Assembly (NCBI GenBank): GCA_008330645.1
Contig: VLTN01000001.1
Location: 310,001-374,000 of the forward strand
Source: Cafeteria roenbergensis
Lineage: Eukaryota; Sar; Bigyra; Bicosoecida; Cafeteriaceae
Direction: 5' to 3'
Length of the DNA stretch: 64,000 bases
Numbering within the stretch: position 1 is the first letter of the stretch; each line of letters starts with the position of its first letter. Below the pieces are notes generated by a model. That model was not told the DNA's origin, did not search any database, and worked only from the letters and a program-made list of their open reading frames with translations. The position numbers and the translations under genes were made by a program. Shown here piece by piece: positions 43,548-64,000 of the stretch.

Positions 43548-44566
43548 ATGTCCGGCCAAGACGTTAAGGCCGCGAAGGTCATCCTAAACACGTCGCTGGT
43601 GAGGGCCTCGCACCCGTTTGCTTCCGCGCGCAAGCAAGCTCACCTGACGCCGGAGCCTGGGCAACGGGCCAGACTCCCAGAGCTGTGACACTGCGGTCCA
43701 GATTTCGTCCCTTGTGCCCCGCGATGGTTGTCCGTGAGCAGGGCGCTGTGGAGCTGGAGCTTTACGTGGAGCATGCGCCGAAGACTTGCCTCAACTTTTT
43801 CTGCCTGGCCCAGCGCGGCGCCTACGACGGTGTGGTCTTCCACCGCATCATCGCCGACTTCATGATCCAGGGTGGTGATCCCACCGGCACCGGGGCGGGT
43901 GGTCAGTCGATTTTCGGCGGGCCGTTCGAGGACGAGATTTCGCCTGCGCTCAAGCACACGGGCGCAGGCATCTTGAGCATGGTGAGCACGGCCATGGAGA
44001 CCCAGTGTGTGGAGCGCTGCTCCTCGTGTGCGTGACCGCCCTGGGAGCAGCGCTGGTGCTGCCTTGCGACCCGTTGTGCTGGTCCATGATCGCGCCGGCT
44101 TTGCTCCCACTCCCCGCGCCCCCTCCCTTGTGCGGTGAACCCTCCCTGCTGCAGGCCAACTCTGGCCCCGACTCGAACAAGTCACAGTTCTTCATCACAC
44201 TGGCGCCCACGGCTTGGCTCGACGGTGAGCCGGCGGCTGCTGACATTCGCGTCGGCTCTCCACGCACAAGCCACGCCCGAGTCTGCCTTCACAGCCCCGC
44301 AGAGGAAGGTCCGCCTTTCGGCCCGTGTCACCACTTGCTCGCTCGCGCGCTTGCGGCCCCGCCCTCCAAGCCAACCTGGCCACCCCTGCTGCGCCCTGCT
44401 CGCAGGAAAGCACACAATTTTTGGCCGCGTGTCTTCCGGCATGGACGTGGTGGAGCGACTGGGCAGTGTGCCCACGGACAAGTCGGACCGGCCGACCCAG
44501 ACTGTGCGAATCGAGTCTGCCGTGGCTGCGGACGCGGGGTCCATGGATCTCTCCGCTGCTCCGTAA
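43548..44566 (+). CDS. PPIL1: PPIL1-type cyclophilin (peptidyl-prolyl cis-trans isomerase), four exons
   Basis: A predicted 173-residue cyclophilin that catalyses cis-trans isomerisation of proline peptide bonds; human PPIL1 (166 residues) works in the spliceosome with SKIP. Exons: 43548-43598, 43742-43981, 44155-44224, 44406-44566. All junctions are fixed by alignment: VILNTSL/GAVELELYVEHAPKTC, GAGILSM/ANSGPDSNKSQFF, WLDG/KHTIFGRVSSGMD. Active-site residues are present: the FHR arginine (VVFHRI), the FMIQGGDP phenylalanine and glutamine, QFFITLAP and the tryptophan in AWLDG. The internal GTGAGGQSIFGGPFEDE loop is typical of the PPIL1 branch. No signal peptide is seen, so it is nuclear or cytosolic. 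Four exons in about 1 kb makes this the most intron-dense gene here, each intron 143-181 bases long. Confidence 0.95.
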
Positions 44567-44774
44567 TCCCGCCGAAGTTTGCGTGTCAACCGAATTCGTG
44601 TCGCCTGCCCCAAGGAAAACACCCATAAAAGCTCGACACGAGAGTGAGACTCCAAAAACGCGGCTTGGGGTCAGCTCCCGGGCGCCGCGCGCACTTGAGG
44701 CGAGCAGCAACGTGGGCTCTGCCAAGAAAATGCTGGTCCGAGAATGCGCTTGCCACTCGCGTAGGCATTGCAGC

Positions 44775-47700: not shown

Positions 47701-50588
47701 GGGAGCCGGACTGGGCGCTGTGCTTGGCGCAGGCAGGCACCGTTCTGTCCCTCCAGCGGCTCGTGTGCAAGGAGGCTGCGGCCCGCGGAAACTGGCCCGT
47801 CGCGTTCGCCATTGCGCGCTGCCTGGACGTGAGTCGAGCACTCCCAGCCAATCCAGGGGATGCCCAGCCAGCGCTGCCGGCGGACCCTTCGCTGAGCGAA
47901 GGCGGATTGCGTGCAGCCCTGAAGGCGCATCCCGCCGGGAAGCTTGCGGCCGCAGCCAGTGCAACGGGCAGTGCGGTCGGAACCTGGGGACTGACGCTGG
48001 CGCACGGCGAAGGGGAGGCTGCAGCTTGCCGGCCGTCTGTCGTGGCCTTTGCTGACGGGCGAGTCGTGGAGTCTGCGGTCGTCCCTGCCACCCTCGTCAA
48101 GACGTCGGGCAGTCTTGCCGCCGCGCTGGAGTCAATCCTCGCCGAGGCAAGGGCTCTACCTGACGGAGAGCCGATGCTCCTCGCGATTGACGTCGAGTGG
48201 AGGCCGTCTGGCCAGTTCGACAGCGTGCTCCCGGCAAGCGTCAAGGCCGCCCGCGGGACGGGCGGGGAGTCTGGCCTGCACCCGTGGCACCCGACCAGGG
48301 TGTCCTGGCCCGCTTCCACGCTGCAACTGGCCACGCTTGGGCGCTCGTGGGTTGTGGACCTGCTCGCGCTGCACGCAGAAGCAGTGGCGGGGGCTGATGG
48401 AGCCCTCCCGCCGCCGTGGCACGTCCCGTCCGGGGACTTGTCCCGGGCAGTTGAGGCTCTCAGCGCCGTCATGGCTGACCCGTCAGTGGTGAAGGTCGGC
48501 TGGGGTCTCTCAGGCGACTTGGCCAAAGTGGCTGCCAGCCACTGCTTCTTGCTCCGGCCGCTGCATGTCGTGGAGCCGATTCTTGACCTTCGCGACGCGT
48601 TGGGCACGCTAGCCCGGGCAGCCGGCGAGGCCGCCCCTGCCGAGCTGTGCGCCGCCGCGGACGCCAGCGGCCTGAGCAACGCGGTTCGCGAGGTGCTGGG
48701 GGGCCGGCTCTCCAAGAAGGAGCAGACCTCGGACTGGCAGCGCAGAGAGCTCAGCGTCGCGCAGATTCGCTACGCGGCCATCGACGCGCTGGCGACAGCG
48801 CACCTCGCGGCGGGGTCCATTGCACTTGGGGGGCAGGCGCTGGACATGACTGGCTGGCACTTGCTGCCGGGTGCCGACGTGACGGGCGGCTCAAGCGAGC
48901 TGGCTGCCGGCGCTGGTCGAGCTCCGTCGCTCTCCCTTGTGTCTTCGTCGACCCTCTCTGCCAAGGATGTGGGCTCTGCCGCTCCCTCCTTCGCCTATGC
49001 TTGGAGGCACGCGTGGCCGGACCTGGCAACCAAGGTGGGTTCGGAAGCACCACTCTCTGCCACGGACCCCGCAGAGTTCCTGCGGGAGTGTGCCGCCTCG
49101 CTCTCTCCACCTGGAAAGAGCCAACTGTCGGAAGATCCAAATCCGGATCTTGCTCTCCAATGGGCCAAAGGACTTTACCAGCCTCTGGGCGCTAGCCGGT
49201 TGAAGCTCGCGGACGCAGCCACCACGGCGAGTCTCGGCACCGCCCGGGTAGGCGCTGCTGCCCCTACCAGCGGTGCTGCCGCTGGTGGGGACGGATCGCA
49301 TGCACGGGCATCAACCATCGGCGGCCGTGATCAACGGCATGTGATGGCTGCCCTTGTTGCGGCCGGGCTGCCGTCGAGCCGTGTCATCGACGCGCCGGAC
49401 ACGCATCGGGCCGAGGACGCCGCGGCAAGCATAGGCGTGCCACACGGCGCAATCATCAAGTCGCTCGGCATCGTTGTCGCTGGGAGGCCCGCGCTGGCCC
49501 TCGTGCCCGGAGGCGCTCGTATGGACTACAAGGCCGTGGGTGCGGCGATTGCTGCGGAGCAGGCTGCCAGGGCCGCCGCCGTTGCTGCCGCAGCCAGCAG
49601 CGCGACGGAGGGGATTGCGGGGAAGAAGCCAGGCAAGCACGTGCGCACCAGTGCGCGGGCGCGAATGGCCCGGGCAGAGGAGTGCGTGCCGCTGTTTGGG
49701 TTTTCCCCGGGCGCATTCCCGCCTCTGGGGCTCAAGTGCTCTGAAGCTGGTGCTGGCTCGCTCGTCGTTGTCATGGACTCTGCGGTGCTCCATGCCGGCG
49801 TCCCTGCAAGCTCTCTCTCAACGGAGGCCAAGGCGGCCCTTGGAGTGGCTCTGCCGCCGGATGACTCCCCCGTCGTCTTTGCTGGTGGCGGGACGGTGCA
49901 CCATGTGCTCTGTTTGACTCCCGACGAGTTGAAGGCCGCATCTGGGGCCGTTGTTGCATCCTTTTGCAAAACCCGAGAAAGGGCTTCGGCTGCTGCTGCG
50001 CCCACGGGGCAAGTTGCCTGCGCCCCTGACGGGCCGGCGGCTGAAACCCCTGCGTTCGACCCTGATTCGTTCCACCCCGACCCTCGGTGGTTGTGCCTCC
50101 TATTCCCCCGTCCTCGCTTTCTTGTTGACAGCAGCCTCGGGCGGCTTGTGCGCTGGCTGAGGGTGGTGGGCATCGATACCCTCGAGCGCACGCGGGAGGA
50201 GAGTGTGGGCGCAGCCATGGCGCATGCGGCTTCCACAGGACGGCTGTTCGTGACGCGCGATCACAAGCTCGCCTCCCGCAAGGGGTCACGGTCACTGCTG
50301 ATGATTTTACAGAACACCACTGGTGGCCAATTCGAAGAGATCACGGCTCACTGCGGCCTCACCTGCTCCGTTGACGACTTGATGTCGAGGTGCTCCAAAT
50401 GCAACGGCCGGGGCTACCGAGTTCTGTCGCGGGATCGCGTACTTGCGCGTGGAGGGTTGGGCATCCACCCCAAAGTGCTCTCCTCGGTCGCAACGTACTT
50501 TCAGTGCCTGTCGTGCGAGGCCGTGTACTGGGCTGGCCCCAAGTTCGACTCGACGCGCGCACACTTTGCCGGACTCGTTGTCCACTGA
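44775..50588 (+). CDS. Mut7/EXD3-like 3'-5' exonuclease fused to YbaK-like and Mut7-C domains
   Basis: A 1937-residue protein in one exon; the start at 44775 (MATEAADANP) is preferred and 44730 is possible. The first 1100 residues are Ala/Gly-rich with dispersed helical segments and no recognised domain. A DEDDy exonuclease follows at about 1133-1345: LAIDVEW supplies the first Asp and Glu, VGWGLSGDLAKV the second Asp, and IRYAAIDALATAHL the Tyr and last Asp. A YbaK/ProX-like deacylase fold lies at about 1519-1728 (VMAALVAAGL, GAIIKSLGIVVAGRPAL). The C-terminal Mut7-C domain at about 1770-1930 is a PIN-like nuclease (RFLVDSSLGRLVRWLRVVGI, LFVTRDHKLAS). It ends in a zinc ribbon (CSKCNGRGY and FQCLSCEAVYW). 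Nematode mut-7 acts in small-RNA silencing. The role here could be RNA trimming or quality control; the YbaK-like part suggests a link to tRNA. Confidence 0.85.
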   Translation: MATEAADANPSPPASLDWSAAGLKALRCTDEEAAALTALVRFTATGAPPDAPRDAETWGEIPVCQLERLDRALSRHSRKTETAAMSAVSAGFAFAIRSCSASAASGGDAATSRVAAACKRVVDIAAFGIRTLGSDGRSAVAFRKEVSRSTGEWAKRQRTTKDPLPDDIGARRIARTALLALEIAAAQDRGVVGQVIATPWGECAGRLLSAVAEATRAASPPGSRHQDAPQDGSDGTAAVTTATGRPVVAVGGDDQSEDWAGISPPPTIVAWVWRVTAANDWSWTSVPDTSDPVQAATSAALEEAARELSGGWIQWLVASAEPTDAADAIIAIRAAVLPGASAELQPSPVSGTAACPEPIAASLLAKYHPWIAASRAEAFVGTLASVDRYRLLPRAASALWAGRPQAAALVVGRAALALARAAAGGNRALLMSASSRGEQAGSEARDGGVRPGQASCCADSRDTAEELLRGETELEVRGRVELLAGAASLLSASAQAVWNLAVAAAACQDAAGAAAGAAGTPAAGGPAACRPGEERPEGGMSAMTAVLRAAAEAAPPTSVAASGAGSASLLYEPKLGPGGSSDSIRTPGAGAGSGRHVVCSGAGGEFADDPALGQGEQLYDGSTRTPVWRPAMASLGIRVSAAAAARAVMPSQTERGSTPAARSTHGGAPAAVDAPHSGAAAGPFAASGGRDGVGEAAGPGTAAVGGIDVSPLPWVDPTVAVPFNPRPPDSQEGIEREWTLLMTALGSVKLWRAFDATADAVSLLGSPASLVDTDPGGTLKRPQHQSARRPPRAQGADHEEQGGGTPSRVADGDGVRRGAGAGAGAGSGDGSESGDGRGGDGGALTAPLRTGAATPGGGVTGRAEKPSTSDSLLRLAERAGVLDGSGAPKCEAGTEPVIGTGEERLPHITLATTAQVVRGPPASAVGTKFERTGERRALARKSLLEALAATSAQPPEALNGGQGPERQGMPPIWRAGEPDWALCLAQAGTVLSLQRLVCKEAAARGNWPVAFAIARCLDVSRALPANPGDAQPALPADPSLSEGGLRAALKAHPAGKLAAAASATGSAVGTWGLTLAHGEGEAAACRPSVVAFADGRVVESAVVPATLVKTSGSLAAALESILAEARALPDGEPMLLAIDVEWRPSGQFDSVLPASVKAARGTGGESGLHPWHPTRVSWPASTLQLATLGRSWVVDLLALHAEAVAGADGALPPPWHVPSGDLSRAVEALSAVMADPSVVKVGWGLSGDLAKVAASHCFLLRPLHVVEPILDLRDALGTLARAAGEAAPAELCAAADASGLSNAVREVLGGRLSKKEQTSDWQRRELSVAQIRYAAIDALATAHLAAGSIALGGQALDMTGWHLLPGADVTGGSSELAAGAGRAPSLSLVSSSTLSAKDVGSAAPSFAYAWRHAWPDLATKVGSEAPLSATDPAEFLRECAASLSPPGKSQLSEDPNPDLALQWAKGLYQPLGASRLKLADAATTASLGTARVGAAAPTSGAAAGGDGSHARASTIGGRDQRHVMAALVAAGLPSSRVIDAPDTHRAEDAAASIGVPHGAIIKSLGIVVAGRPALALVPGGARMDYKAVGAAIAAEQAARAAAVAAAASSATEGIAGKKPGKHVRTSARARMARAEECVPLFGFSPGAFPPLGLKCSEAGAGSLVVVMDSAVLHAGVPASSLSTEAKAALGVALPPDDSPVVFAGGGTVHHVLCLTPDELKAASGAVVASFCKTRERASAAAAPTGQVACAPDGPAAETPAFDPDSFHPDPRWLCLLFPRPRFLVDSSLGRLVRWLRVVGIDTLERTREESVGAAMAHAASTGRLFVTRDHKLASRKGSRSLLMILQNTTGGQFEEITAHCGLTCSVDDLMSRCSKCNGRGYRVLSRDRVLARGGLGIHPKVLSSVATYFQCLSCEAVYWAGPKFDSTRAHFAGLVVH

Positions 50589-50723: not shown

Positions 50724-53700
50724 TCACCACACGGGCAAGTCGTCGTGGAATGTGCGGCCGCTGAGCGTCGGCTTGATATGGCCTGCTCGGATCACGAAGT
50801 CTCCGAAGTGCTCGCCGTCGAGCCTCTCCCGGGCAAACTGCCGCAGCAGCGGAGCGAGCACCTCCAGAATCTCTGCTTCGTCGATCCCATCGCGGTAGAG
50901 CTTGTTCAGCCTTTGCCCAAAGAATCCGCCGCCAAGGTAGAGATTGTAGCGGCCCGGGCTCTTGCCGACGAGTGCCACTTCCGCCACGAAAGGGCGAGAG
51001 CAGCCGTTCGGGCAGCCACTGCTGCGAATCACGATCTCCTCGGAGCGGAGGCCACACTCGTCGATCACGTCTTCAATCTTTGTGATCAAGGACGGCAGGT
51101 ACCGCTCGGACTCTGCCATTGCCAGGGCGCACGCTGCGAAAGGGGCGAAGGGGAGGGGGGGGGGCAAAGGGGAGGGAAAAATGTGAAGAGGCACAGCAGC
51201 ACTCGCAAGCGCGAGCTACCCAGCCATCAGCCGTAGCCGGAATCCGCCACCCTGCTTGCCAAGACCAGCAATCGGAGACTTACTGGGCAAGGCCACGCAG
51301 GCGACAGAGTTGAGGCGCAGGCCAGAGAAGCCCGAAGTGCTCAGTCCGTGGTCGGCCAGGACCGCGTCAATGGCGCTCCGCATCGATGGCAGGACGTTGG
51401 AAACCACCACGTTCTGGTTCGCCGTGAGGACAAACTTGAGGGACGGGTGCATCGACGCGACCTTGCGCAGCGCCGTCTTGGCTCGGCACCCCGGGTCGTC
51501 TCTGACCCTACCGTTCTGGATGAACAACGTCAAATGCATCTTTCCGTCCTCCCCAGCAGCCCATCCGAAGGCATCCCCACGCGTGGTGAACTCGAACGCA
51601 CGAGGCTCCTGCAGGCGGAACCCGAGTCGGGATTCGACTTCGTTGCGATACCAGCTGATGCCACGGTCGTCGATGGTGTACTTGAGCCTGGCATGCTTCC
51701 GGTTGACGCGGTCGCCGAAGTCGCGCTGCACGGTCGCGCAGTGCTCGGCGACGGCATTGACCTGGTCCGGCGTGCAGAAGCCAAGAAGCTCCCCAAGGCG
51801 AGGGAATGTCTTGGTATTTCCATGAGTCATCCCCATGCCGCCGCCAACGATGATGTTGAAGCCCACGAGGCGCCCGCCCTGCCGCCGTTCAGCAGCCGAC
51901 GGCTCTGCGTAGAGAACACGCCCAGTGTGTGCCCCCCGGTCTGCGCCAGGCGCCCGCGAGGCCAGGCCGTCCTCGATGTCGGCGCTACTCGTGGAAGGCA
52001 GGTGCTCTCCTTCCTTCGACTCGACGGCCGACGAGCTGCGCACTCCTTCGCCAGCAGAAGCAGCAGCAGCAGCAGCAGCAGACGTGGCCTCCGGCTCGTC
52101 GTCGTGCTCCACGATGGCCACAAAGTTCAGGCAATGAGCGTAGACGTCGACGTCGTTCACGGGCGGCACAGCGAAGGAGATCTTGAACTTCCGCGGCAGG
52201 TACGTCGGGCCGTAGATGGGCTCAGACTCGGGAGAAGCACTCATGGCTCCACCGGCCACGAGCTTGCGATCCAAAAACACCTCATGGTAGGCGCGGCTGC
52301 CCGCGTGCGGCTTGAGATGAGCAGACACGGAGTCCGCAATTGCCACGACTTGGGTATGGACCGACGAGAGCTGCGGCAAGGCCGACACCATGACGTTGCG
52401 GTTGACGTCCCCGCAAGCAGCAATGGTGTCCATGAGCCGAGCGTTGATCGCCTTGATTGTGGCCTTCAGCTTGGACTTGATGACGCCGTGCAGCTGGAAG
52501 GCCTGCCTCGTGGTCAGCTTGAAGGTGCCGTTGCCGTGAGTGTCCGAGAGTCGGTCGAAAGCCAGCCACTGGTCGGCGGACACCACACCCCCTGGCATGC
52601 GGGCACGGACCATGAAGGAATACGCTGGCTCCAGCCCGGCCTTCCGGCGTGCCGTGCGAAGGTCGCGATCGTCCTGCATGTAGATGCCGCTGAACTTTGT
52701 CAGCTTTGTGTCCTCAAACGGAATGGCACCCGTCGTTGGGTCGACCAGTGACGTGGCAAGCGTGCCCCGCAGGAAGTTGCTTCCGCGCTTGATGTCCTCG
52801 TCGCTACGGTGGACTGGCTCGGCACTGGCGAGTTCCCCGTCCCCGTCATGCGACTCGAGGTCCGAAGCTCTGGCAACTCCCAGGCCTGCCCAAAGCTGCG
52901 GCACCCAGTCCTTGAGAGCCTCCTCGAACCCGTCATCGTCTTGCTCGTCGCACAGGCAAAGGCTTGCGAGGTGGGACACGCCAAGGGCCGAAAGCCGCGC
53001 AAACACGTCCTTGGCAGCCTTGTTGTAGTACACAGCCTGGTCAGGCCGTGGCCAGTAGTGGCTATCTCCGAGACCAACCACGCCGACCTGGAGGCCGTCG
53101 AGCATGGGCTGGTCAGTGGACATGAGGCGGGCAACAAACTCCTTCGAGTTGAGCGGCTGCTCGCCTTGCCCAGCAGTGGAGACCACGAAAAGCAGGCGCT
53201 GGGCCTCGACCAGCCGAGTGGGATCCACATCGTCGGCAGGCTTGATATCCACGTCAAAGCCTCGACGGGCCGCCTCGTCGCCAAGCCGCTTAGCCACCCC
53301 CGCCGCGTTGCCGCCGTCCGACCCGTACAGCACGAGCAGCTGCTCCTTAGCCTCGCCGCCTGGTCCTCCCACGGCAGAGGCAAGGCGCTTGAACGAGCCG
53401 AGCAGCCGCTTCTCTGCCGTGTCGTGGGCACTCACAGCTACAGCTGGCATCCCGGATGCGGCAGCGTCAAACTCTGGGGATGCCGCGGCCAGCAGACTGA
53501 GGTGGTTCTGCCTGCTGACGAAGGCCTCCAAGTCCCGGAGCACACAGGGCGAGTCAACGGCCAGGGCAGGGGACAGCCCGGCGGCGGCTCGTGGCGCGCT
53601 GGTTGCCGACTCTGCGGCGGCCGCCGCAGCAGACGCAGCCGGTGGCGGGGAAGCCGAGAGCTTTGTGCCCAGCTCCGAGTCCAGGCTCGGGTTCCAGCGG

Positions 53701-54782
53701 TAGAGCGGCCACGCCCCAGAGTCAACTGCAGCAGTAGCGACTGCAACATCGACCGCTGCGCTCTCCTCAGGATGCGCGGTCAGCGATTCCGCGGACGCTG
53801 CCTCGGGCGCGGCGCGCGGATCCAGCACGAGCACGAGAGCCGGACCATTGAAACTTGCTGCTTCGTCGAGCGCACGTTGCAGCTGAACGCCCCCGTCTGC
53901 CGCCGGCGCGCACGACGCGACGAACGCGCTTCCGTGCTCCATCGTCCAGAGCCCGGCATCCTTCACACGCCGAAGCTCTGCAGCTGCGTCAGCAGCAACG
54001 TGCTTCAGGCCCACCGAAAGCGGAAGCGCCGCTGCAGACGTCGCAGATTCTGCCGACGAGTCTGCGTCGGAGCCTGCAGCGAAGGAGGCAGCTGCAGCGT
54101 GCAACACAGAGGGAGCTCCCGTCGCGAGGACGAACTTGACGTTCGCGGACGTCCGCAGCGCGTGGTGGAGACCCGAGAAGTCTTCGCCAACAGCGAAGGC
54201 ACGGGCATCAGCAATGACCCAGCGAGAGGCCGATGCGCCAAGGGCCACGGACTTCGCTCCAACGGAGGAAGCGGCCGCGAGCGCGGGCGGACCAGAAGCC
54301 AGGGTGTCCAACGCAGATTCAACGGAGGCATCTCCGGCACAGCCACGCGACACAGACGCCGCGGCCACAGCAGCGCCCGCGCTCTCGGCGATGCTGCCGA
54401 CGTCATCTGCCAACACTGCCCTGGCCCAGCGATCCAACAGCGCAGCGTTTTCGCGAGATAGCGACGACATCGCACCAGGTGCAGCCAAGCGGCTGGCTAC
54501 CGACCTGGAGAGCGCAATGTGGGCAATGTGCACGCCTAGTAGACCTTCGGCAGAAGCTTCCAGCGAGGCGGGTGACCCCTCAGTCGTGGCAAGCACAATT
54601 GCCCGGTGGCCACCGGCAGCGGCAGACGCAGCCCGAGCCATGTCCAGCTTGTGGGCTGCCACGCCAATCGACGCGAATTTGGTGGGAGTGGTGGGGCAGC
54701 TGTCCGCAGTGGCCGAGGGCGAAGAGGAGCTGGCTGCTTCAATTTGCGGAGTACGCGTCGCTTCTGACGCCACGGGGGTCAT
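50724..54782 (-). CDS. Met5-type sulfite reductase (beta subunit, flavodoxin-hemoprotein fusion), two exons
   Basis: A predicted 1302-residue enzyme that reduces sulfite to sulfide with siroheme and a 4Fe-4S cluster, for cysteine and methionine synthesis. Exon 1 is 54782-51284 and exon 2 is 51133-50724; a GTAAGT donor and TCGCAG acceptor recreate [21 protein letters not shown]. It matches yeast Met5 (1442 residues) from end to end. There is an N-terminal pyruvate-oxidoreductase-like region ending in [10 protein letters not shown] flavodoxin domain covers about 479-634 ([45 protein letters not shown]). Then come the two sulfite reductase repeats ([31 protein letters not shown]). Cluster ligands are the C-x5-C pair at the exon junction and [13 protein letters not shown] low-complexity Ala/Ser insertion of about 60 residues sits near 890-953. 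It should pair with a Met10-like flavoprotein subunit not seen here. Confidence 0.95.
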
Positions 54783-55679
54783 TTCCGCTGGTGACGTGTC
54801 CCGCCCGCCCTGCGCACCGTGGCAGCAACGAGTCGTGGCGGCGAGAGCAGAGGTTCCAGGATAGTGGCGCCGGAGCCCATGGGTGACACTCGCCGCGGAG
54901 GCGGTGCTGAGAGCTCGCCGGGCAGCGCGAGCAGCGAGTTGCAGGGCCGTGGTCTGCCCCAAAACGCGTCGCCATTGATTGACCCTCTCACTCGAGACAG
55001 CGCCTGGGCCAAGAGAACAGCGCCTGCCCCCAAGCCAGCACTGAGAAGGGCTGCCGTGGCGGACTTTGACGGTGGCCAAGCTGCCATGTCGACTCCGGGG
55101 ACGACGTGCAAGAGTGCCTCGGATCGCAGCCTCGCAGCGCCACTCGCTCGTGACGTCATCCGCGATCGGCGGCGCTGCGACCGTGGCGGAATCCGAATGA
55201 CGGGGCTTGAGCTTCAAGCCACGGCGGCTCCGCCCAAACGCCTGCTGTCACGGTGTCGTCACCTCCTCAAGAGTGCTCCATACCGCATTGAACGACGAGG
55301 AGGACAGCTTGCTTGTGGTGGTCGGCGGGGCAGAGGCACCAGTGAGCCAAGCCCTTGCAGCTGCGACGAGCCCCAGCGTGGCTGCGGGCATGAACCACGA
55401 CGGCGCTCCCACCAAGATCTGCTGCAAACAAGGGGCAGCCCCGTGCGCGAGGTGTGTGCAGCCGTCGCTGGAGCCAAAGAGAGCATGCAAGCGAGGCAAA
55501 TCGTTGTGGTGTGAAGGCCGTTGCGCACCGTTGTCAGAGGCCTGTGCAAACGCTGGTCTGAAAACACCACGAAAGCGTGATGAGCCTATGTCACTTTGAA
55601 TGAGGAGGCCCAGGCGATGAGGTCAGAGGCGCCCGGGACGCTCAGCAACACAACTGCAGTATGCGTCACCCGCAAGGCT
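54783..55679. other. Intergenic region with competing short frames, unresolved
   Basis: About 900 bases between the sulfite reductase start and the tRNA array. A minus-strand frame from an ATG at 55087 (MAAWPPSKSATAALLSAG) contains a hydrophobic helix and could be a short membrane protein or an upstream exon. It ends in a stop overlapping the sulfite reductase ATG. Other frames at 55248-55499 (-) and 55207-55599 (+) are equally protein-like. None has a recognised domain, so no gene is called. The sulfite reductase promoter should also lie here. Confidence 0.3.
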
Positions 55680-55846
55680 GGTCAGCGGGCCGCGTCGCGC
55701 GCATGCGTCGCGCAGATGCTCCGTGGCGAGAGCAGGAGCGTCGGTGCGGGCGGGCGTGCGTTGTGCGCGGCTGTATGTGTGTTTGTTGTTGTCGTCTGTG
55801 CTGTAGTTGTATGTGTGTTCACATTTTGACCAATTCCGTCATCTCA

Positions 55847-55918
55847 GGGCGTGTAGCTCAGGGGTAGAGCGCCCGCTTAGCATGCGGGAAGTCAAGGGTT
55901 CGATTCCCTTCTCGTCCA
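55847..55918 (+). tRNA. tRNA-Ala (anticodon AGC), array copy 1
   Basis: A 72-base intronless cloverleaf. The anticodon loop TTAGCAT is closed by CCCGC/GCGGG, the D stem is GCTC/GAGC and the T arm is AAGGG-TTCGATT-CCCTT. The acceptor pair G3:U70, the main alanine identity element, is present, and the discriminator is A. Position 6:67 is a U:U mismatch. Internal box A (TAGCTCAGGGG) and box B (GGTTCGATTCC) are intact, and a TTTTT pol III terminator follows at 55921. CCA is not encoded as a full 3' end. Copies 2 to 9 are identical. Confidence 0.97.
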
Positions 55919-56220
55919 CATTTTTGATGAATTTTGCACGCCCAAGCCGCGACCCGCGCACGCTCCCGCCCGTCCCACACTCCCACATCCGGCGCAATGC
56001 ACGGCCCGCATGTAGTCCTGTGGGCACAGCGCACGAGACCACGACCAGGTCGATCACACGCCGCTCGCTCTCAGCCTTGACGATCGCACTCAGCCCGGGT
56101 GCTCTTCCAAGTGCCTTGGACGAGCAGTCCGGTCCCCTGTGGACCTCGCGCCGCAGCCGTCGTCTCCCGGGGTCGGCTTCCCGCTCCGCTCCGCCCGCGC
56201 CCTCAGCAGTTAGTGCGCGT

Positions 56221-56332
56221 GGCTGCCCCTCCCCCACCACGTGGCCGCCCCTCCCCCACCACGTGGCCGCCCCTCCCCCGCCGCGTAGCCGCCCCTCCCC
56301 CCGGCCGCGTAGCCGCCCCTCCCCCGCCGCGT
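56221..56332 (+). repeat. Spacer minisatellite, unit 1 (five subunits)
   Basis: Subunits are 22 bases with the core GCCCCTCCCCC followed by ACCACGT, ACCGCGT or GCCGCGT; one 24-base variant has CCGGCCGCGT. Joined ACCACGT+GG forms the palindrome CCACGTGG, which contains the E-box CACGTG. Order here: 22, 22, 22, 24, 22. Confidence 0.92.
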
Positions 56333-56720
56333 CGCCGCAGCTGCACAGCCGCCCCCACCGCGGCCCCGGCCTGGCCGCACGCGGGAGGACCGGCGGCCGG
56401 GCGAGGGCGCCTCCTTGTGACCCAGCCGGCCGCTCACCCGGCTGTGTGCAGCGCGGCCCCGGGGTCATCGCCGCGTCCCCGACAGGGGCGGGACGGGGGC
56501 GCAGGGCGGGGGGAGGCGGTGGCGTGAGCGCGGAGTACGTCGCGCACTGGGCGGGTCGGCGGGCCGCGTTGCGCGCATGCGTCGCGCAGATGCTCCGTGG
56601 CGAGAGCAGGAGCGTCGGTGCGGGCGGGCGTGCGTTGTGCGCGGCTGTATGTGTGTTTGTTGTTGTCGTCTGTGCTGTAGTTGTATGTGTGTTCACATTT
56701 TGACCAATTCCGTCATCTCA

Positions 56721-56792
56721 GGGCGTGTAGCTCAGGGGTAGAGCGCCCGCTTAGCATGCGGGAAGTCAAGGGTTCGATTCCCTTCTCGTCCA
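56721..56792 (+). tRNA. tRNA-Ala (AGC), array copy 2
   Basis: Identical in sequence to copy 1, with the same T-run terminator and the same upstream AT-rich stretch. It starts 874 bases after copy 1. Confidence 0.97.
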
Positions 56793-57094
56793 CATTTTTG
56801 ATGAATTTTGCACGCCCAAGCCGCGACCCGCGCACGCTCCCGCCCGTCCCACACTCCCACATCCGGCGCAATGCACGGCCCGCATGTAGTCCTGTGGGCA
56901 CAGCGCACGAGACCACGACCAGGTCGATCACACGCCGCTCGCTCTCAGCCTTGACGATCACACTCAGCCCGGGTGCTCTTCCAAGTGCCTTGGACGAGCA
57001 GTCCGGTCCCCTGTGGACCTCGCGCCGCAGCCGTCGTCTCCCGCGGTCGGCTTCCCGCTCCGCTCCGCCCGCGCCCTCAGCAGTTAGTGCGCGT

Positions 57095-57184
57095 GGCCGC
57101 CCCTCCCCCACCACGTGGCCGCCCCTCCCCCGCCGCGTAGCCGCCCCTCCCCCCGGCCGCGTAGCCGCCCCTCCCCCGCCGCGT
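57095..57184 (+). repeat. Spacer minisatellite, unit 2 (four subunits)
   Basis: Order 22, 22, 24, 22. This is one subunit fewer than unit 1, which accounts for the 22-base shorter period. Confidence 0.92.
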
Positions 57185-57572
57185 AGCCGCAGCTGCACAG
57201 CCGCCCCCACCGCGGCCCCGGCCTGGCCGCACGCGGGAGGACCGGCGGCCGGGCGAGGGCACCTCCTTGTGACCCAGCCGGCCGCTCACCCGGCTGTGTG
57301 CAGCGCGGCCCCGGGGTCATCGCCGCGTCCCCGACAGGGGCGGGACGGGGGCGCAGGGCGGGGGGAGGCGGTGGCGTGAGCGCGGAGTACGTCGCGCACA
57401 GGGCGGGTCGGCGGGCCGCGTCGCGCGCATGCGTCGCGCAGATGTTCCGTGGCGAGAGCAGGAGCGTCGGTGCGGGCGGGCGTGCGTTGTGCGCGGCTGT
57501 ATGTGTGTTTGTTGTTGTCGTCTGTGCTGTAGTTGTATGTGTGTTCACATTTTGACCAATTCCGTCATCTCA

Positions 57573-57644
57573 GGGCGTGTAGCTCAGGGGTAGAGCGCCC
57601 GCTTAGCATGCGGGAAGTCAAGGGTTCGATTCCCTTCTCGTCCA
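57573..57644 (+). tRNA. tRNA-Ala (AGC), array copy 3
   Basis: Identical to copy 1, followed by a TTTTT terminator. It starts 852 bases after copy 2. Confidence 0.97.
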
Positions 57645-57946
57645 CATTTTTGATGAATTTTGCACGCCCAAGCCGCGACCCGCGCACGCTCCCGCCCGTC
57701 CCACACTCCCACATCCGGCGCAATGCACGGCCCGCATGCAGTCCTGTGGGCACAGCGCACGAGACCACGACCAGGTCGATCACACGCCGCTCGCTCTCAG
57801 CCTTGACGATCGCACTCAGCCCGGGTGCTCTTCCAAGTGCCTTGGACGAGCAGTCCGGTCCCCTGTGGACCTCGCGCCGCAGCCGTCGTCTCCCGCGGTC
57901 GGCTTCCCGCTCCGCTCCGCCCGCGCCCTCAGCAGTTAGTGCGCGT

Positions 57947-58012
57947 GGCTGCCCCTCCCCCACCACGTGGCCGCCCCTCCCCCACCGCGTGGCCGCCCCT
58001 CCCCCGCCGCGT
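57947..58012 (+). repeat. Spacer minisatellite, unit 3 (three subunits)
   Basis: Three 22-base subunits and no 24-base variant. It is the shortest tract of the array. Confidence 0.92.
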
Positions 58013-58400
58013 AGCCGCAGCTGCACAGCCGCCCCCACCGCGGCCCCGGCCTGGCCGCACGCGGGAGGACCGGCGGCCGGGCGAGGGCGCCTCCTTGTGA
58101 CCCAGCCGGCCGCTCACCCGGCTGTGTGCAGCGCGGCCCCGGGGTCATCGCCGCGTCCCCGACAGGGGCGGGACGGGGGCGCAGGGCGGGGGGAGGCGGT
58201 GGCGTGAGCGCGGAGTACGTCGCGCACAGGGCGGGTCGGCGGGCCGCGTTGCGCGCATGCGTCGCGCAGATGCTCCGTGGCGAGAGCAGGAGCGTCGGTG
58301 CGGGCGGGCGTGCGTTGTGCGCGGCTGTATGTGTGTTTGTTGTTGTCGTCTGTGCTGTAGTTGTATGTGTGTTCACATTTTGACCAATTCCGTCATCTCA

Positions 58401-58472
58401 GGGCGTGTAGCTCAGGGGTAGAGCGCCCGCTTAGCATGCGGGAAGTCAAGGGTTCGATTCCCTTCTCGTCCA
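58401..58472 (+). tRNA. tRNA-Ala (AGC), array copy 4
   Basis: Identical to copy 1, followed by a TTTTT terminator. It starts 828 bases after copy 3, the shortest period, because the preceding minisatellite has only three subunits. Confidence 0.97.
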
Positions 58473-58774
58473 CATTTTTGATGAATTTTGCACGCCCAAG
58501 CCGCGACCCGCGCACGCTCCCGCCCGTCCCACACTCCCACATCCGGCGCAATGCACGGCCCGCATGTAGTCCTGTGGGCACAGCGCACGAGACCACGACC
58601 AGGTCGATCACACGCCGCTCGCTCTCAGCCTTGACGATCGCACTCAGCCCGGGTGCTCTTCCAAGTGCCTTGGACGAGCAGTCCGGTCCCCTGTGGACCT
58701 CGCGCCGCAGCCGTCGTCTCCCGCGGTCGGCTTCCCGCTCCGCTCCGCCCGCGCCCTCAGCAGTTAGTGCGCGT

Positions 58775-58864
58775 GGCTGCCCCTCCCCCGCCGCGTGGCC
58801 GCCCCTCCCCCGCCGCGTAGCCGCCCCTCCCCCCGGCCGCGTAGCCGCCCCTCCCCCGCCGCGT
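58775..58864 (+). repeat. Spacer minisatellite, unit 4 (four subunits)
   Basis: Order 22, 22, 24, 22. It lacks any CCACGTGG palindrome, because its first junctions read GCCGCGTGG. Confidence 0.92.
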
Positions 58865-59252
58865 AGCCGCAGCTGCACAGCCGCCCCCACCGCGGCCCCG
58901 GCCTGGCCGCACGCGGGAGGACCGGCGGCCGGGCGAGGGCGCCTCCTTGTGACCCAGCTGGCCACTCACCCGACTGTGTGCAGCGCGGCCCCGGGGTCAT
59001 CGCCGCGTCCCCGACAGGGGCGGGACGGGGGCGCAGGGCGGGGGGAGGCGGTGGCGTGAGCGCGGAGTACGTCGCGCACAGGGCGGGTCGGCGGGCCGCG
59101 TTGCGCGCATGCGTCGCGCAGATGCTCCGTGGCGAGAGCAGGAGCGTCGGTGCGGGCGGGCGTGCGTTGTGCGCGGCTGTATGTGTGTTTGTTGTTGTCG
59201 TCTGTGCTGTAGTTGTATGTGTGTTCACATTTTGACCAATTCCGTCATCTCA

Positions 59253-59324
59253 GGGCGTGTAGCTCAGGGGTAGAGCGCCCGCTTAGCATGCGGGAAGTCA
59301 AGGGTTCGATTCCCTTCTCGTCCA
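59253..59324 (+). tRNA. tRNA-Ala (AGC), array copy 5
   Basis: Identical to copy 1, followed by a TTTTT terminator. It starts 852 bases after copy 4. Confidence 0.97.
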
Positions 59325-59626
59325 CATTTTTGATGAATTTTGCACGCCCAAGCCGCGACCCGCGCACGCTCCCGCCCGTCCCACACTCCCACATCCGGCG
59401 CAATGCACGGCCCGCATGCAGTCCTGTGGGCACAGCGCACGAGACCACGACCAGGTCGATCACACGCCGCTCGCTCTCAGCCTTGACGATCACACTCAGC
59501 CCGGGTGCTCTTCCAAGTGCCTTGGACGAGCAGTCCGGTCCCCTGTGGACCTCGCGCCGCAGCCGTCGTCTCCCGCGGTCGGCTTCCCGCTCCGCTCCGC
59601 CCGCGCCCTCAGCAGTTAGTGCGCGT

Positions 59627-59714
59627 GGCCGCCCCTCCCCCACCACGTGGCCGCCCCTCCCCCACCGCGTGGCCGCCCCTCCCCCGCCGCGTAGCCGCCT
59701 CTCCCCCACCGCGT
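59627..59714 (+). repeat. Spacer minisatellite, unit 5 (four subunits)
   Basis: Four 22-base subunits without the 24-base variant; the last has GCCTCTCC in place of GCCCCTCC. Confidence 0.92.
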
Positions 59715-60102
59715 GGCCGCAGCTGCACAGCCGCCCCCACCGCGGCCCCGGCCTGGCCGCACGCGGGAGGACCGGCGGCCGGGCGAGGGCGCCTCCTTGT
59801 GACCCAGCCGGCCGCTCACCCGGCTGTGTGCAGCGCGGCCCCGGGGTCATCGCCGCGTCCCCGACAGGGGCGGGACGGGGGCGCAGGGCGGGGGGAGGCG
59901 GTGGCGTGAGCGCGGAGTACGTCGCGCACAGGGCGGGTCGGCGGGCCGCGTCGCGCGCATGCGTCGCGCAGATGCTCCGTGGCGAGAGCAGGAGCGTCGG
60001 TGCGGGCGGGCGTGCGTTGTGCGCGGCTGTATGTGTGTTTGTTGTTGTCGTCTGTGCTGTAGTTGTATGTGTGTTCACATTTTGACCAATTCCGTCATCT
60101 CA

Positions 60103-60174
60103 GGGCGTGTAGCTCAGGGGTAGAGCGCCCGCTTAGCATGCGGGAAGTCAAGGGTTCGATTCCCTTCTCGTCCA
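60103..60174 (+). tRNA. tRNA-Ala (AGC), array copy 6
   Basis: Identical to copy 1, followed by a TTTTT terminator. It starts 850 bases after copy 5. Confidence 0.97.
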
Positions 60175-60476
60175 CATTTTTGATGAATTTTGCACGCCCA
60201 AGCCGCGACCCGCGCACGCTCCCGCCCGTCCCACACTCCCACATCCGGCGCAATGCACGGCCCGCATGCAGTCCTGTGGGCACAGCGCACGAGACCACGA
60301 CCAGGTCGATCACACGCCGCTCGCTCTCAGCCTTGACGATCACACTCAGCCCGGGTGCTCTTCCAAGTGCCTTGGACGAGCAGTCCGGTCCCCTGTGGAC
60401 CTCGCGCCGCAGCCGTCGTCTCCCGCGGTCGGCTTCCCGCTCCGCTCCGCCCGCGCCCTCAGCAGTTAGTGCGCGT

Positions 60477-60586
60477 GGCTGCCCCTCCCCCACCGCGTGG
60501 CCGCCCCTCCCCCACCACGTGGCCGCCCCTCCCCCGCCGCGTAGCCGCCCCTCCCCCGCCGCGTAGCCGCCCCTCCCCCGCCGCGT
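60477..60586 (+). repeat. Spacer minisatellite, unit 6 (five subunits)
   Basis: Five 22-base subunits without the 24-base variant. Confidence 0.92.
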
Positions 60587-60974
60587 CGCCGCAGCTGCAC
60601 AGCCGCCCCCACCGCGGCCCCGGCCTGGCCGCACGCGGGAGGACCGGCGGCCGGGCGAGGGCGCCTCCTTGTGACCCAGCCGGCCGCTCACCCGGCTGTG
60701 TGCAGCGCGGCCCCGGGGTCATCGCCGCGTCCCCGACAGGGGCGGGACGGGGGCGCAGGGCGGGGGGAGGCGGTGGCGTGAGCGCGGAGTACGTCGCGCA
60801 CAGGGCGGGTCGGCGGGCCGCGTTGCGCGCATGCGTCGCGCAGATGCTCCGTGGCGAGAGCAGGAGCGTCGGTGCGGGCGGGCGTGCGTTGTGCGCGGCT
60901 GTATGTGTGTTTGTTGTTGTCGTCTGTGCTGTAGTTGTATGTGTGTTCACATTTTGACCAATTCCGTCATCTCA

Positions 60975-61046
60975 GGGCGTGTAGCTCAGGGGTAGAGCGC
61001 CCGCTTAGCATGCGGGAAGTCAAGGGTTCGATTCCCTTCTCGTCCA
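60975..61046 (+). tRNA. tRNA-Ala (AGC), array copy 7
   Basis: Identical to copy 1, followed by a TTTTT terminator. It starts 872 bases after copy 6. Confidence 0.97.
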
Positions 61047-61348
61047 CATTTTTGATGAATTTTGCACGCCCAAGCCGCGACCCGCGCACGCTCCCGCCCG
61101 TCCCACACTCCCACATCCGGCGCAATGCACGGCCCGCATGTAGTCCTGTGGGCACAGCGCACGAGACCACGACCAGGTCGATCACACGCCGCTCGCTCTC
61201 AGCCTTGACGATCACACTCAGCCCGGGTGCTCTTCCAAGTGCCTTGGACGAGCAGTCCGGTCCCCTGTGGACCTCGCGCCGCAGCCGTCGTCTCCCGGGG
61301 TCGGCTTCCCGCTCCGCTCCGCCCGCGCCCTCAGCAGTTAGTGCGCGT

Positions 61349-61438
61349 GGCCGCCCCTCCCCCACCACGTGGCCGCCCCTCCCCCGCCGCGTAGCCGCCC
61401 CTCCCCCCGGCCGCGTAGCCGCCCCTCCCCCGCCGCGT
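61349..61438 (+). repeat. Spacer minisatellite, unit 7 (four subunits)
   Basis: Order 22, 22, 24, 22, the same arrangement as unit 2. Confidence 0.92.
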
Positions 61439-61826
61439 AGCCGCAGCTGCACAGCCGCCCCCACCGCGGCCCCGGCCTGGCCGCACGCGGGAGGACCGGC
61501 GGCCGGGCGAGGGCGCCTCCTTGTGACCCAGCCGGCCGCTCACCCGGCTGTGTGCAGCGCGGCCCCGGGGTCATCGCCGCGTCCCCGACAGGGGCGGGAC
61601 GGGGGCGCAGGGCGGGGGGAGGCGGTGGCGTGAGCGCGGAGTACGTCGCGCACAGGGCGGGTCGGCGGGCCGCGTTGCGCGCATGCGTCGCGCAGATGCT
61701 CCGTGGCGAGAGCAGGAGCGTCGGTGCGGGCGGGCGTGCGTTGTGCGCGGCTGTATGTGTGTTTGTTGTTGTCGTCTGTGCTGTAGTTGTATGTGTGTTC
61801 ACATTTTGACCAATTCCGTCATCTCA

Positions 61827-61898
61827 GGGCGTGTAGCTCAGGGGTAGAGCGCCCGCTTAGCATGCGGGAAGTCAAGGGTTCGATTCCCTTCTCGTCCA
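61827..61898 (+). tRNA. tRNA-Ala (AGC), array copy 8
   Basis: Identical to copy 1, followed by a TTTTT terminator. It starts 852 bases after copy 7. Confidence 0.97.
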
Positions 61899-62200
61899 CA
61901 TTTTTGATGAATTTTGCACGCCCAAGCCGCGACCCGCGCACGCTCCCGCCCGTCCCACACTCCCACATCCGGCGCAATGCACGGCCCGCATGCAGTCCTG
62001 TGGGCACAGCGCACGAGACCACGACCAGGTCGATCACACGCCGCTCGCTCTCAGCCTTGACGATCGCACTCAGCCCGGGTGCTCTTCCAAGTGCCTTGGA
62101 CGAGCAGTCCGGTCCCCTGTGGACCTCGCGCCGCAGCCGTCGTCTCCCGGGGTCGGCTTCCCGCTCCGCTCCGCCCGCGCCCTCAGCAGTTAGTGCGCGT

Positions 62201-62290
62201 GGCTGCCCCTCCCCCACCGCGTGGCCGCCCCTCCCCCGCCGCGTGGCCGCCCCTCCCCCCAGCCGCGTAGCCGCCCCTCCCCCGCCGCGT
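62201..62290 (+). repeat. Spacer minisatellite, unit 8 (four subunits)
   Basis: Order 22, 22, 24, 22, with a CCAGCCGCGT form of the 24-base variant. The 14 bases that follow the tract in all other units (around AGCTGCACAG) are missing here. Confidence 0.92.
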
Positions 62291-62664
62291 GGCCGCCCCC
62301 ACCGCGGCCCCGGCCTGGCCGCACGCGGGAGGACCGGCGGCCGGGCGAGGGCGCCTCCTTGTGACCCAGCCGGCCGCTCACCCGGCTGTGTGCAGCGCGG
62401 CCCCGGGGTCATCGCCACGTCCCCGACAGGGGCGGGACGGGGGCGCAGGGCGGGGGGAGGCGGTGGCGTGAGCGCGGAGTACGTCGCGCACAGGGCGGGT
62501 CGGCGGGCCGCGTTGCGCGCATGCGTCGCGCAGATGCTCCGTGGCGAGAGCAGGAGCGTCGGTGCGGGCGGGCGTGCGTTGTGCGCGGCTGTATGTGTGT
62601 TTGTTGTTGTCGTCTGTGCTGTAGTTGTATGTGTGTTCACATTTTGACCAATTCCGTCATCTCA

Positions 62665-62736
62665 GGGCGTGTAGCTCAGGGGTAGAGCGCCCGCTTAGCA
62701 TGCGGGAAGTCAAGGGTTCGATTCCCTTCTCGTCCA
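62665..62736 (+). tRNA. tRNA-Ala (AGC), array copy 9
   Basis: Identical to copy 1, followed by a TTTTT terminator. It starts 838 bases after copy 8. Its downstream spacer is cut short at about 62873, where unique sequence begins. Confidence 0.97.
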
Positions 62737-62873
62737 CATTTTTGATGAATTTTGCACGCCCAAGCCGCGACCCGCGCACGCTCCCGCCCGTCCCACACTC
62801 CCACATCCGGCGCAATGCACGGCCCGCATGTAGTCCTGTGGGCACAGCGCACGAGACCACGACCAGGTCGATC

Positions 62874-63153
62874 GCTTTCCGCTTCCACAAGCCTTCGGCA
62901 CCCGAACCTTCAGTTTTCTTCGCATGGCACTGGGGGATGCAAAACGGTGCACAGTCTCCATTGCACTGCGTTTGGCCAGGAGTGCAGCACTGCTGCTGCG
63001 TTCCCCTCTCACGCATCCGCTTCTGTCCACGGTGTCGGGCCTCGTTCCTAATGGCAGCCCAGAGCTGGCAGAGCGATCCTGGCGTCTCTGCCGGCTTCCA
63101 GGCAGGCTGTTTGCACTTGGTCGTCTTGCGGCTCCTGCGCGAATCCTGTGGTG
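62874..63153. other. Unique sequence between the tRNA array and the last gene
   Basis: About 280 bases with visibly lower GC than the array. It presumably carries the promoter of the downstream gene. A plus-strand frame here is short and without features, so no gene is called. Confidence 0.4.
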
Positions 63154-63798
63154 ATGTTCGGGTCAAGGCTCGGGCCTCAGGCGTCGCCGTCTCCCTCGCG
63201 CACGGACTCTTCGTCGGCTCTCTCCGTTCCCCGGCGGGTGGTCCTCGGCAAGGGAATGTCAACTGACGACGTTTTCGGACGCAGCACCAGGCGGAGCCCA
63301 GCCAAGGCATCAGCTGACGTGTTTTCTGTTGAGGACCTGGACGGGGTGACCTATGTTGACGACGACGACGAGCAATCCTCGTCTCGGGGCCAGCGCTCAT
63401 CAACTGCATCCAAGGGCGCGGATCGGCGGACAGGCGTTGCGTTGGCCACGCCACGCACCACCTCGCACTCGTCGCCGCGGCCGTCAGCGGATGCAAACTT
63501 CTCGCCTGGATCGGGTGGGTCGCCACGAACTGCGCACGCAGTGCCCAAGGGTGTAGCAACCTCTGGTAGCCCCTCGCCATCGCTCTCCCCGCAGCGCAGG
63601 ACTGTGTCCTTTGCGCGGGAATCGCCCGTGTCAGGCCGTCCTGGCGGGGGCGCTCTTGCTCAGCGTGACGCAGCTGACCTTGACAAGGCACTGGCGGACC
63701 GGGATGCAGCCGTTGCGAGGGCAGAGGCGGCAGAAGCAGTCGCCTCGGGGCTGCGGGACGAGCTTCGGAGGGCAGCAGCAAAGCACATCGATGAAAAG
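63154..63798 (+). CDS. First exon of a Ser-rich, coiled-coil protein (partial, runs off the window)
   Basis: From the ATG at 63154 (MFGSRLGPQASPSP) about 215 residues can be read up to a GTGCGT donor at 63799; without splicing the frame would stop at 63816. The N-terminal 170 residues are Ser/Pro/Arg-rich and disordered, with an acidic patch (VTYVDDDDEQ). They are followed by the start of a coiled coil (from DLDKALADRDAAVARAEAAE to AAAKHIDEK) that is cut mid-helix at the donor. That is why an intron, not a stop, is favoured. No acceptor is evident before 64000, so the next exon should lie beyond the window. The family is unknown; cytoskeletal or scaffold proteins often look like this. Confidence 0.5.
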
Positions 63799-64000
63799 GT
63801 GCGTCTTTTGCCCTAGCTGGCCTTTTTGGGGGGCCTTAGACAAATTCGAGGGGCGGTTCTGCTCCTCCTTTGTCGCTGGTCCGTTCGCTGGGAGCCGTGT
63901 GTGGCTGCTGCGCTCCTCAAAGTCGAGGGGCAACGCTGGAGTCGCAGTCTGTCCCAGCCGTTGCGCCTGCTCTTCCTCCTCGGTTTGTTTTGCTTCGATG

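Follow-up and report, generated by a model that had tools for sequence, protein, structure and literature searches.

Introduction

In Entamoeba histolytica, almost all tRNA genes are found in 25 types of tandem array that account for more than 10% of the genome (PMC2652664). The array units contain up to five tRNA genes, some together with 5S RNA; the location of the arrays at chromosome ends is a proposal, and their function is stated to be obscure (PMC2652664). Large tDNA clusters arise independently many times throughout eukaryotes (PMC2888827), and tandem tRNA arrays or clusters have been published for human 1q23.3, Hydractinia, Nematostella, Arabidopsis, maize and a bryophyte (PMC2888827, PMC4041453, PMC11067881, PMC12652284). 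The plant clusters comprise 27 tRNA-Pro genes in Arabidopsis, 28 tRNA-Ile genes in maize and 26, 18 and 14 identical genes in the bryophyte (PMC12652284). The rarity outside Entamoeba that a first-pass annotation of the present locus had assumed is weakened by these animal and plant clusters, although two of the papers still term homogeneous tRNA tandem repeats outside Entamoeba uncommon or unusual (PMC4041453, PMC11067881). No published case closer to the present array than those of Entamoeba, human, plants and Hydractinia was recognised in the literature search. The Xenopus tDNA repeat is a further case, for which the same search found no matching paper.

Results

Nine identical tRNA-Ala(AGC) genes form a tandem array

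The entire stretch of DNA analysed here (the window; 64 kb) contains nine tRNA genes according to both ARAGORN and the Rfam tRNA model (RF00005), and neither method finds a tenth. All nine reside in a tandem array on the + strand (55680..62873), which consists of eight full units of 828–874 bases and a partial ninth unit of 376 bases. The tRNA-Ala(AGC) genes are 73 bases long, identical to one another in every letter and arranged head to tail (55847..55919, 56721..56793, 57573..57645, 58401..58473, 59253..59325, 60103..60175, 60975..61047, 61827..61899 and, in the partial last unit, 62665..62737; all +). Each gene is located by both ARAGORN and Rfam, with the Rfam end of copy 1 one base earlier, and scores 64.5 bits against RF00005 (gathering score, 29). 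The start-to-start distances of 874, 852, 828, 852, 850, 872, 852 and 838 bases match the 828–874 bases of the first-pass annotation, whose gene number and identity are likewise confirmed. Neighbouring tRNA genes are less than 1 kb apart and serve one amino acid (Ala), which fits a homogeneous tandem tDNA cluster in the sense of PMC2888827. The array has a GC content of 71%, in a genome of approximately 70% GC.

The likeness of unit 1 to the other units fades approximately 165–170 bases upstream of the first tRNA, and that of unit 9 fades approximately 135 bases downstream of the last tRNA. Unit similarity thus breaks down at 55680 and 62873, the edges that had been proposed. No target-site duplication was seen by eye, with no statistic applied, in the 72-base edge sequences. 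When the array was masked and unit 2 was used as the query, only short matches and no further copy of the unit were obtained in the window. The best match (54 bases, 76%, E 0.004) falls in and just past the minisatellite part of the unit.

The confinement of nine of nine window tRNA genes to the array, with no dispersed tRNA gene, would be expected if the genome resembled Entamoeba or Hydractinia in keeping most of its tRNA genes in tandem arrays, and the head-to-tail units with spacer tandem repeats provide a local likeness. However, 64 kb is too small a sample to judge such an organisation, and each unit here carries a single tRNA, in contrast to the E. histolytica units of up to five tRNAs, some with 5S RNA (PMC2652664). 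A genome full of arrays is thus an improbable reading of this locus. The description of the array as Entamoeba-like is supported for its local structure; the single array of one tRNA seen here is too little to extend it to the genome.

The tRNA genes are predicted to be intact

The A box TAGCTCAGGGG and the B box GGTTCGATTCC, judged against the consensus boxes, are present in 9/9 tRNA copies. All nine copies also contain the anticodon AGC and a TTTTT terminator two bases past the 72-base tRNA. The Rfam alignment reveals a G3-U70 pair, the alanine identity pair. In the acceptor stem, all nine tRNAs have a U6-U67 mismatch. Folded alone, the tRNA adopts a cloverleaf in which the U6-U67 pair is open, with no notable excess stability relative to shuffled sequences (z −1.2; 24 of 200 shuffles equally stable). 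Judging from the Rfam score and the boxes and terminator in every copy, the array genes appear to be intact rather than pseudogenes, despite the acceptor-stem mismatch.

No RNA gene other than the tRNAs reaches the Rfam gathering score in the 64-kb window. At E ≤1, unit 2 additionally yielded a Plastid-ycf2 match antisense to the tRNA, which was dismissed as chance (22.7 bits, versus 65.7 bits for the tRNA), and no other listed Rfam match. Exact matches to the 72-base tRNA and to 26 bases of its 5' flank were absent from viral contigs, and exact matches to the 36-base tRNA core were absent from prokaryote genome contigs.

A 22-base minisatellite resides in the spacer of each full unit

The short spacer repeats noted in the first-pass annotation correspond to a GC-rich minisatellite with a 22-base period, detected by TRF at approximately 3.5–5.5 copies per full unit. 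The minisatellite is longest in units 1 and 6 (56216..56338 and 60472..60592; ∼5.5 copies each) and shortest in unit 3 (57942..58018; ∼3.5 copies). Approximately 4.5 copies are found in units 2, 4, 5 and 7 (57090..57190, 58770..58870, 59622..59720 and 61344..61444) and approximately 4.6 copies in unit 8 (62196..62299). Unit length varies through the minisatellite copy number and a 14-base deletion at the 3' edge of unit 8. Seven minisatellite forms are observed among the eight full units, with one form common to units 2 and 7.

Candidate quadruplex/i-motif tracts are denser in the array (17 tracts; 2.4 per kb) than elsewhere in the window (0.3 per kb). Tract coverage as high as that of unit 2 was reached in 6 of 300 dinucleotide-shuffled sequences and in 1 of 66 other 852-base stretches. 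The minisatellite was rejected as the quadruplex former, as the pattern matches of unit 2 (56839 and 57337–57365) lie outside the 22-base repeat.

The units differ by shared variants in a mosaic pattern

The eight full units differ pairwise by 2–14 substitutions (mean, 8.8) over 814–872 aligned bases, a likeness for which chance is not a serious explanation, and none of the 28 pairs is identical. Because all eight differ, an echo of the assembly is disfavoured. Tandem repeats are difficult to assemble, and an assembler could have multiplied fewer true units; however, the full units are distinct by substitutions, display seven minisatellite forms and are bounded on both sides by non-array sequence, which makes such an artefact very improbable. 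The true unit number could nevertheless be larger or smaller than the assembled nine.

All four combinations of variants occur in eight of ten pairs of shared variable sites, including the pair at columns 334 and 491, neither of which is a CpG transition. Such a mosaic is expected from unequal exchange or gene conversion. Outside the minisatellite, however, CpG transitions account for seven of the twelve variable sites, so part of the mosaic may reflect recurrent mutation. The similarity of units is independent of their distance (Mantel r −0.09, P 0.65), with mean differences of 10.0 between adjacent and 8.4 between non-adjacent units. Units 2 and 7 are only 2 substitutions apart, and units 1 and 6, like units 2 and 7, are alike in length; a five-unit higher-order repeat was nonetheless rejected, as other shared variants are off-period. 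Outside the minisatellite, invariant runs reach at most 293 bases, and the longest one includes the tRNA. With the variable sites shuffled, this run has P 0.065, which does not support the gene being more strongly conserved than the spacer.

The array is flanked by non-array sequence on both sides

Within the window, non-array sequence extends over 55,679 bases on the left of the array and 1,127 bases on its right. The left neighbour is a sulfite reductase frame (51216..55247, −; stop to stop) with flavodoxin and nitrite/sulfite reductase domains in Pfam; it is oriented away from the array, and its first in-frame ATG is at 54782. The tentative right neighbour is an open frame (63052..63816, +) with in-frame ATGs at 63154 and 63256. 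It is overlapped by a longer open frame on the − strand (62657–63835), so that a gene could have either orientation, and neither frame has a Pfam match. Pfam support was obtained for nine of the 22 open frames tested on the left side. The supported frames, which include sulfite reductase with flavodoxin, NMD3, RCC1-BTB and Mut7-C, represent eukaryote-type content. No mobile-element match was found among the tested flanking frames.

The telomere-like role suggested earlier finds no support at this locus. The array is non-terminal within the window, and no two adjacent copies of any of five telomere motifs tested occur anywhere in the 64 kb; it might still be subterminal if a chromosome end lies past the right edge of the window.

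By analogy with the proposal for the human 1q23.3 tDNA repeat, the array might act as a chromatin boundary that keeps its two neighbours apart. Barrier activity of tDNA is documented, and CTCF is found at the human array (PMC4041453). The orientation of the sulfite reductase frame and the density of candidate quadruplex/i-motif tracts would be compatible with this role, but the tracts amount to no more than a sequence pattern, and the right neighbour could face either way, given the overlapping + and − frames. We consider a boundary role doubtful.

Codons read by tRNA-Ala(AGC) rank first in predicted demand

Codon demand was estimated from nine Pfam-supported stretches, set by hand around the Pfam matches with the residues between matches counted, and from 31 decoding classes built from decoding rules. 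In this sample, GCC, GCT and GCA constitute 10.6% of 4,496 codons and rank first of the 31 classes, followed by Gly-GCC (7.3%). Taken singly, six of the nine stretches are led by this alanine class, and in three another class is ahead. Alanine accounts for 15.0% of residues in the nine stretches. The reading of C-ending codons through inosine by such tRNAs has been reported in holozoan protists (PMC6188563). Because the codons read by tRNA-Ala(AGC) rank first, gene dosage would be the simplest purpose of the array. The lack of a link between tRNA gene number and codon usage in Entamoeba (PMC2652664) counts against a dosage reading.

The same ranking bears on neutral amplification, in which a chance tandem duplication would have grown by unequal exchange with its copy number unselected. 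This account is compatible with gene and spacer not differing significantly in conservation, with the description of tRNA genes as recombination and fork-pausing hot spots (PMC2652664, PMC2888827) and with the reported fast turnover of tRNA gene locations (PMC2888827). It does not anticipate that amplification would affect the very tRNA for which predicted demand is highest, or that none of the nine copies is decayed, although recent homogenisation would equally account for the absence of decay. Neutral growth is therefore a rather unlikely, albeit credible, explanation.

Discussion

The explanation that we favour, and hold to be reasonably probable, is a homogeneous tandem tDNA array in which a single tRNA-Ala(AGC) gene, together with its flanking sequence and a minisatellite, was amplified, homogenised and kept for tRNA supply. 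The unit would have originated by tandem duplication, head to tail, and reached nine copies. As judged from sequence features, the genes would be transcribed by RNA polymerase III. Unequal sister-chromatid exchange or gene conversion may homogenise the units (concerted evolution), and slippage or misaligned exchange may change the minisatellite copy number. The array would be retained because it provides tRNA-Ala, presumably carrying inosine at position 34, for which the need would be greatest in this Ala-rich, GC-rich genome. The locus probably represents an ordinary case of a heavily used tRNA gene that was amplified and homogenises itself, and comparable arrays are known from several eukaryotic lineages.

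As a single locus, the array is one more case of recurrent tRNA-gene tandem amplification and concerted evolution. A far-reaching extension, which we think has little chance of being correct, is that a GC-rich eukaryotic lineage independently gathered most, if not all, of its tRNA genes into minisatellite-spaced tandem arrays, each sized to codon demand, and that the tRNA-Ala array is one of them. If true, the tRNA genes of this genome would be organised as in Entamoeba but at the opposite compositional extreme, with array size linked to demand. A second, compositionally opposite genome would be informative because the function of the Entamoeba arrays is obscure and gene number there is unlinked to codon usage (PMC2652664). 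If array size tracked codon demand across isoacceptors, the import would be greater, and dosage and structural roles could be compared.

The array resembles the human 1q23.3 tDNA variable number tandem repeat in being GC-rich and located at one locus, with human alleles of 9–43 units (PMC4041453). The human units are 7.3 kb long and contain tRNAs for four amino acids, a CTCF site and ERV LTR flanks (PMC4041453), unlike the units here, which are shorter than 0.9 kb and carry one tRNA, with no mobile-element match in the tested flanking frames. The homogeneous plant clusters are likewise tandem series of numerous tRNA genes of a single kind, defined by neighbours less than 1 kb apart (PMC12652284), but they consist of isoacceptors other than tRNA-Ala(AGC), and spacer minisatellites are unmentioned in the parts of PMC12652284 that describe them. 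The Hydractinia ncRNA arrays share the even spacing, the near-identical tRNA units and spacers of at least several hundred bases, but reach tens to hundreds of copies and include, besides other ncRNAs, the tRNAs of all 20 amino acids (PMC11067881).

The Entamoeba arrays are also composed of near-identical head-to-tail copies, for which concerted evolution was proposed (PMC2652664). Short intergenic tandem repeats that vary in number, as observed here, are present in every unit only in E. histolytica and E. dispar (PMC2652664). E. histolytica differs in its multi-tRNA units and A+T-rich spacers (PMC2652664), compared with one tRNA per unit, nine units and 71% GC here. Because the composition of the 70% GC genome is unlike that of Entamoeba, an independent origin of the arrangement, as the first-pass annotation had suspected, is likely.

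Organization of the tandem tRNA array

The tRNA-Ala(AGC) array contains nine genes, all on the + strand (55847–62737), which were detected by both ARAGORN and Rfam. The 73-base tRNA sequences are identical in all nine copies, and the successive spacings are 874, 852, 828, 852, 850, 872, 852 and 838 bases. An in-register alignment resolves eight full units starting at 55680, followed by 376 bases of a ninth that end at 62873. The first-pass annotation, which had described nine identical genes in units of 828–874 bases, is accurate in number, spacing and edges. No other tRNA was found in the 64-kb window by ARAGORN and Rfam, and no Rfam family other than tRNA reached its gathering score. Because unit 9 (62498–62873) breaks off after 376 bases, a collapse of the array would remove the 498-base minisatellite part from the locus; in unit 9, that part may have been lost at the right edge or may never have been present there.

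Each full unit opens with about 167 bases of 5′ flank, which include a T/G-rich stretch. The tRNA follows, with its internal A and B boxes, and a TTTTT terminator lies two bases past the 72-base tRNA. Next come a GC-rich spacer and the 22-base minisatellite, and a tail closes the unit. Units differ in length because the minisatellite varies in copy number (lowest in unit 3, at about 3.5; highest in units 1 and 6, at about 5.5) and contains a 2-base difference, and because unit 8 has lost 14 bases. The GC content of the array is 71%, versus 70% for the window. Stop-to-stop open frames of 280–298 residues cross units 1, 5 and 8 (55807–56717, 59213–60099 and 61787–62661) on both strands and are probably an effect of the high GC content.

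A U6-U67 mismatch, marked in the Rfam alignment, is present in the acceptor stem of every tRNA copy and lies near the G3-U70 pair; the tRNA score is still high, at 64.5 bits. When folded in isolation, the tRNA adopts the cloverleaf with the U6-U67 pair open, at a z-score of −1.2 relative to shuffled sequences, 24 of 200 of which fold as well.

Variation among the units

Outside the minisatellite block, only 12 alignment columns vary. The eight full units differ from one another by 2–14 substitutions, all 28 pairs are distinct, and neighboring units resemble each other no more than distant ones do. Of the ten pairs of shared variable sites, eight contain all four combinations. Seven of the 12 variable sites are CpG transitions by sequence context, so some recurrent mutation is possible; columns 334 and 491 are not CpG transitions, yet exhibit all four combinations. 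The variant pattern is that which unequal exchange or gene conversion along an array would give. A 293-base stretch containing the tRNA is invariant, a suggestive pattern that falls short of significance (P 0.065).

Eight variants outside the minisatellite each occur in one unit only, and five of these are CpG transitions by context. The CpG observed/expected ratio is 1.06 in the array and about 1.0 in the window to its left. CpG transitions among private variants despite a ratio near 1 may hint at local cytosine methylation.

Genomic surroundings

The left neighbor is a sulfite reductase frame (51216–55247, − strand) with Pfam flavodoxin and NIR_SIR domains, whose best solved relative is a sulfite reductase hemoprotein (chain 6c3y, E 2.9e-102). 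To the right, an open frame on the + strand (63052–63816) is overlapped by a longer one on the − strand (62657–63835); as both lack a Pfam match, a gene there may run in either direction. Five telomere motifs were tried, and no two adjacent copies occur anywhere in the window.

Pfam matches were obtained for 9 of 22 frames compared with Pfam (2/2, 5/10 and 2/10 in three batches). One, a 2,114-residue open frame (44244–50588, + strand) about 5 kb from the array, matches DNA_pol_A_exo1, an aminoacyl-tRNA editing domain (PF04073) and Mut7-C RNase in order. In the PDB, its editing part has only weak similarity to a putative trans-editing enzyme (whole-query E 2.8e-5), and no single stretch passes alone in this comparison. 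Another (1314–2789, + strand) combines Rieske and pyridine nucleotide-disulphide oxidoreductase domains, an AIFM3-like architecture.

Codon demand

Codon usage was sampled in 4,496 codons from nine stretches placed manually around Pfam matches, with the residues between matches counted as well; alanine composes 15.0% of the residues in these stretches. The three alanine codons readable by an inosine-34 tRNA account for 10.6% of codons, the largest share among 31 decoding classes drawn up by eukaryotic decoding rules, and this class ranks first in six of the nine stretches taken singly. Amplification of just tRNA-Ala(AGC) agrees with a gene dosage role but does not prove it; tRNA gene number and codon usage are described as unlinked in Entamoeba (PMC2652664).

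Comparison with known tRNA arrays

The background of PMC2888827 names E. histolytica as the sole case of tandem tRNA repeats reported until then; the same source describes many independent origins of large tDNA clusters in eukaryotes, with mostly homogeneous pairs in Tetrahymena, Monosiga and drosophilids. A GC-rich human tRNA array is reported in PMC4041453, which rates homogeneous tandem repeats as uncommon outside Entamoeba. PMC11067881 rates the arrangement as unusual, recording arrays in Hydractinia and Nematostella and none found in other cnidarians, and numerous tandem clusters of identical tRNA genes are listed for plants in PMC12652284. Given these published arrays in Entamoeba, human, cnidarians and plants, the tRNA-Ala(AGC) locus is one more case of an already known, uncommon kind of tandem tRNA array, and it shares its local design with the Entamoeba arrays as described in PMC2652664.
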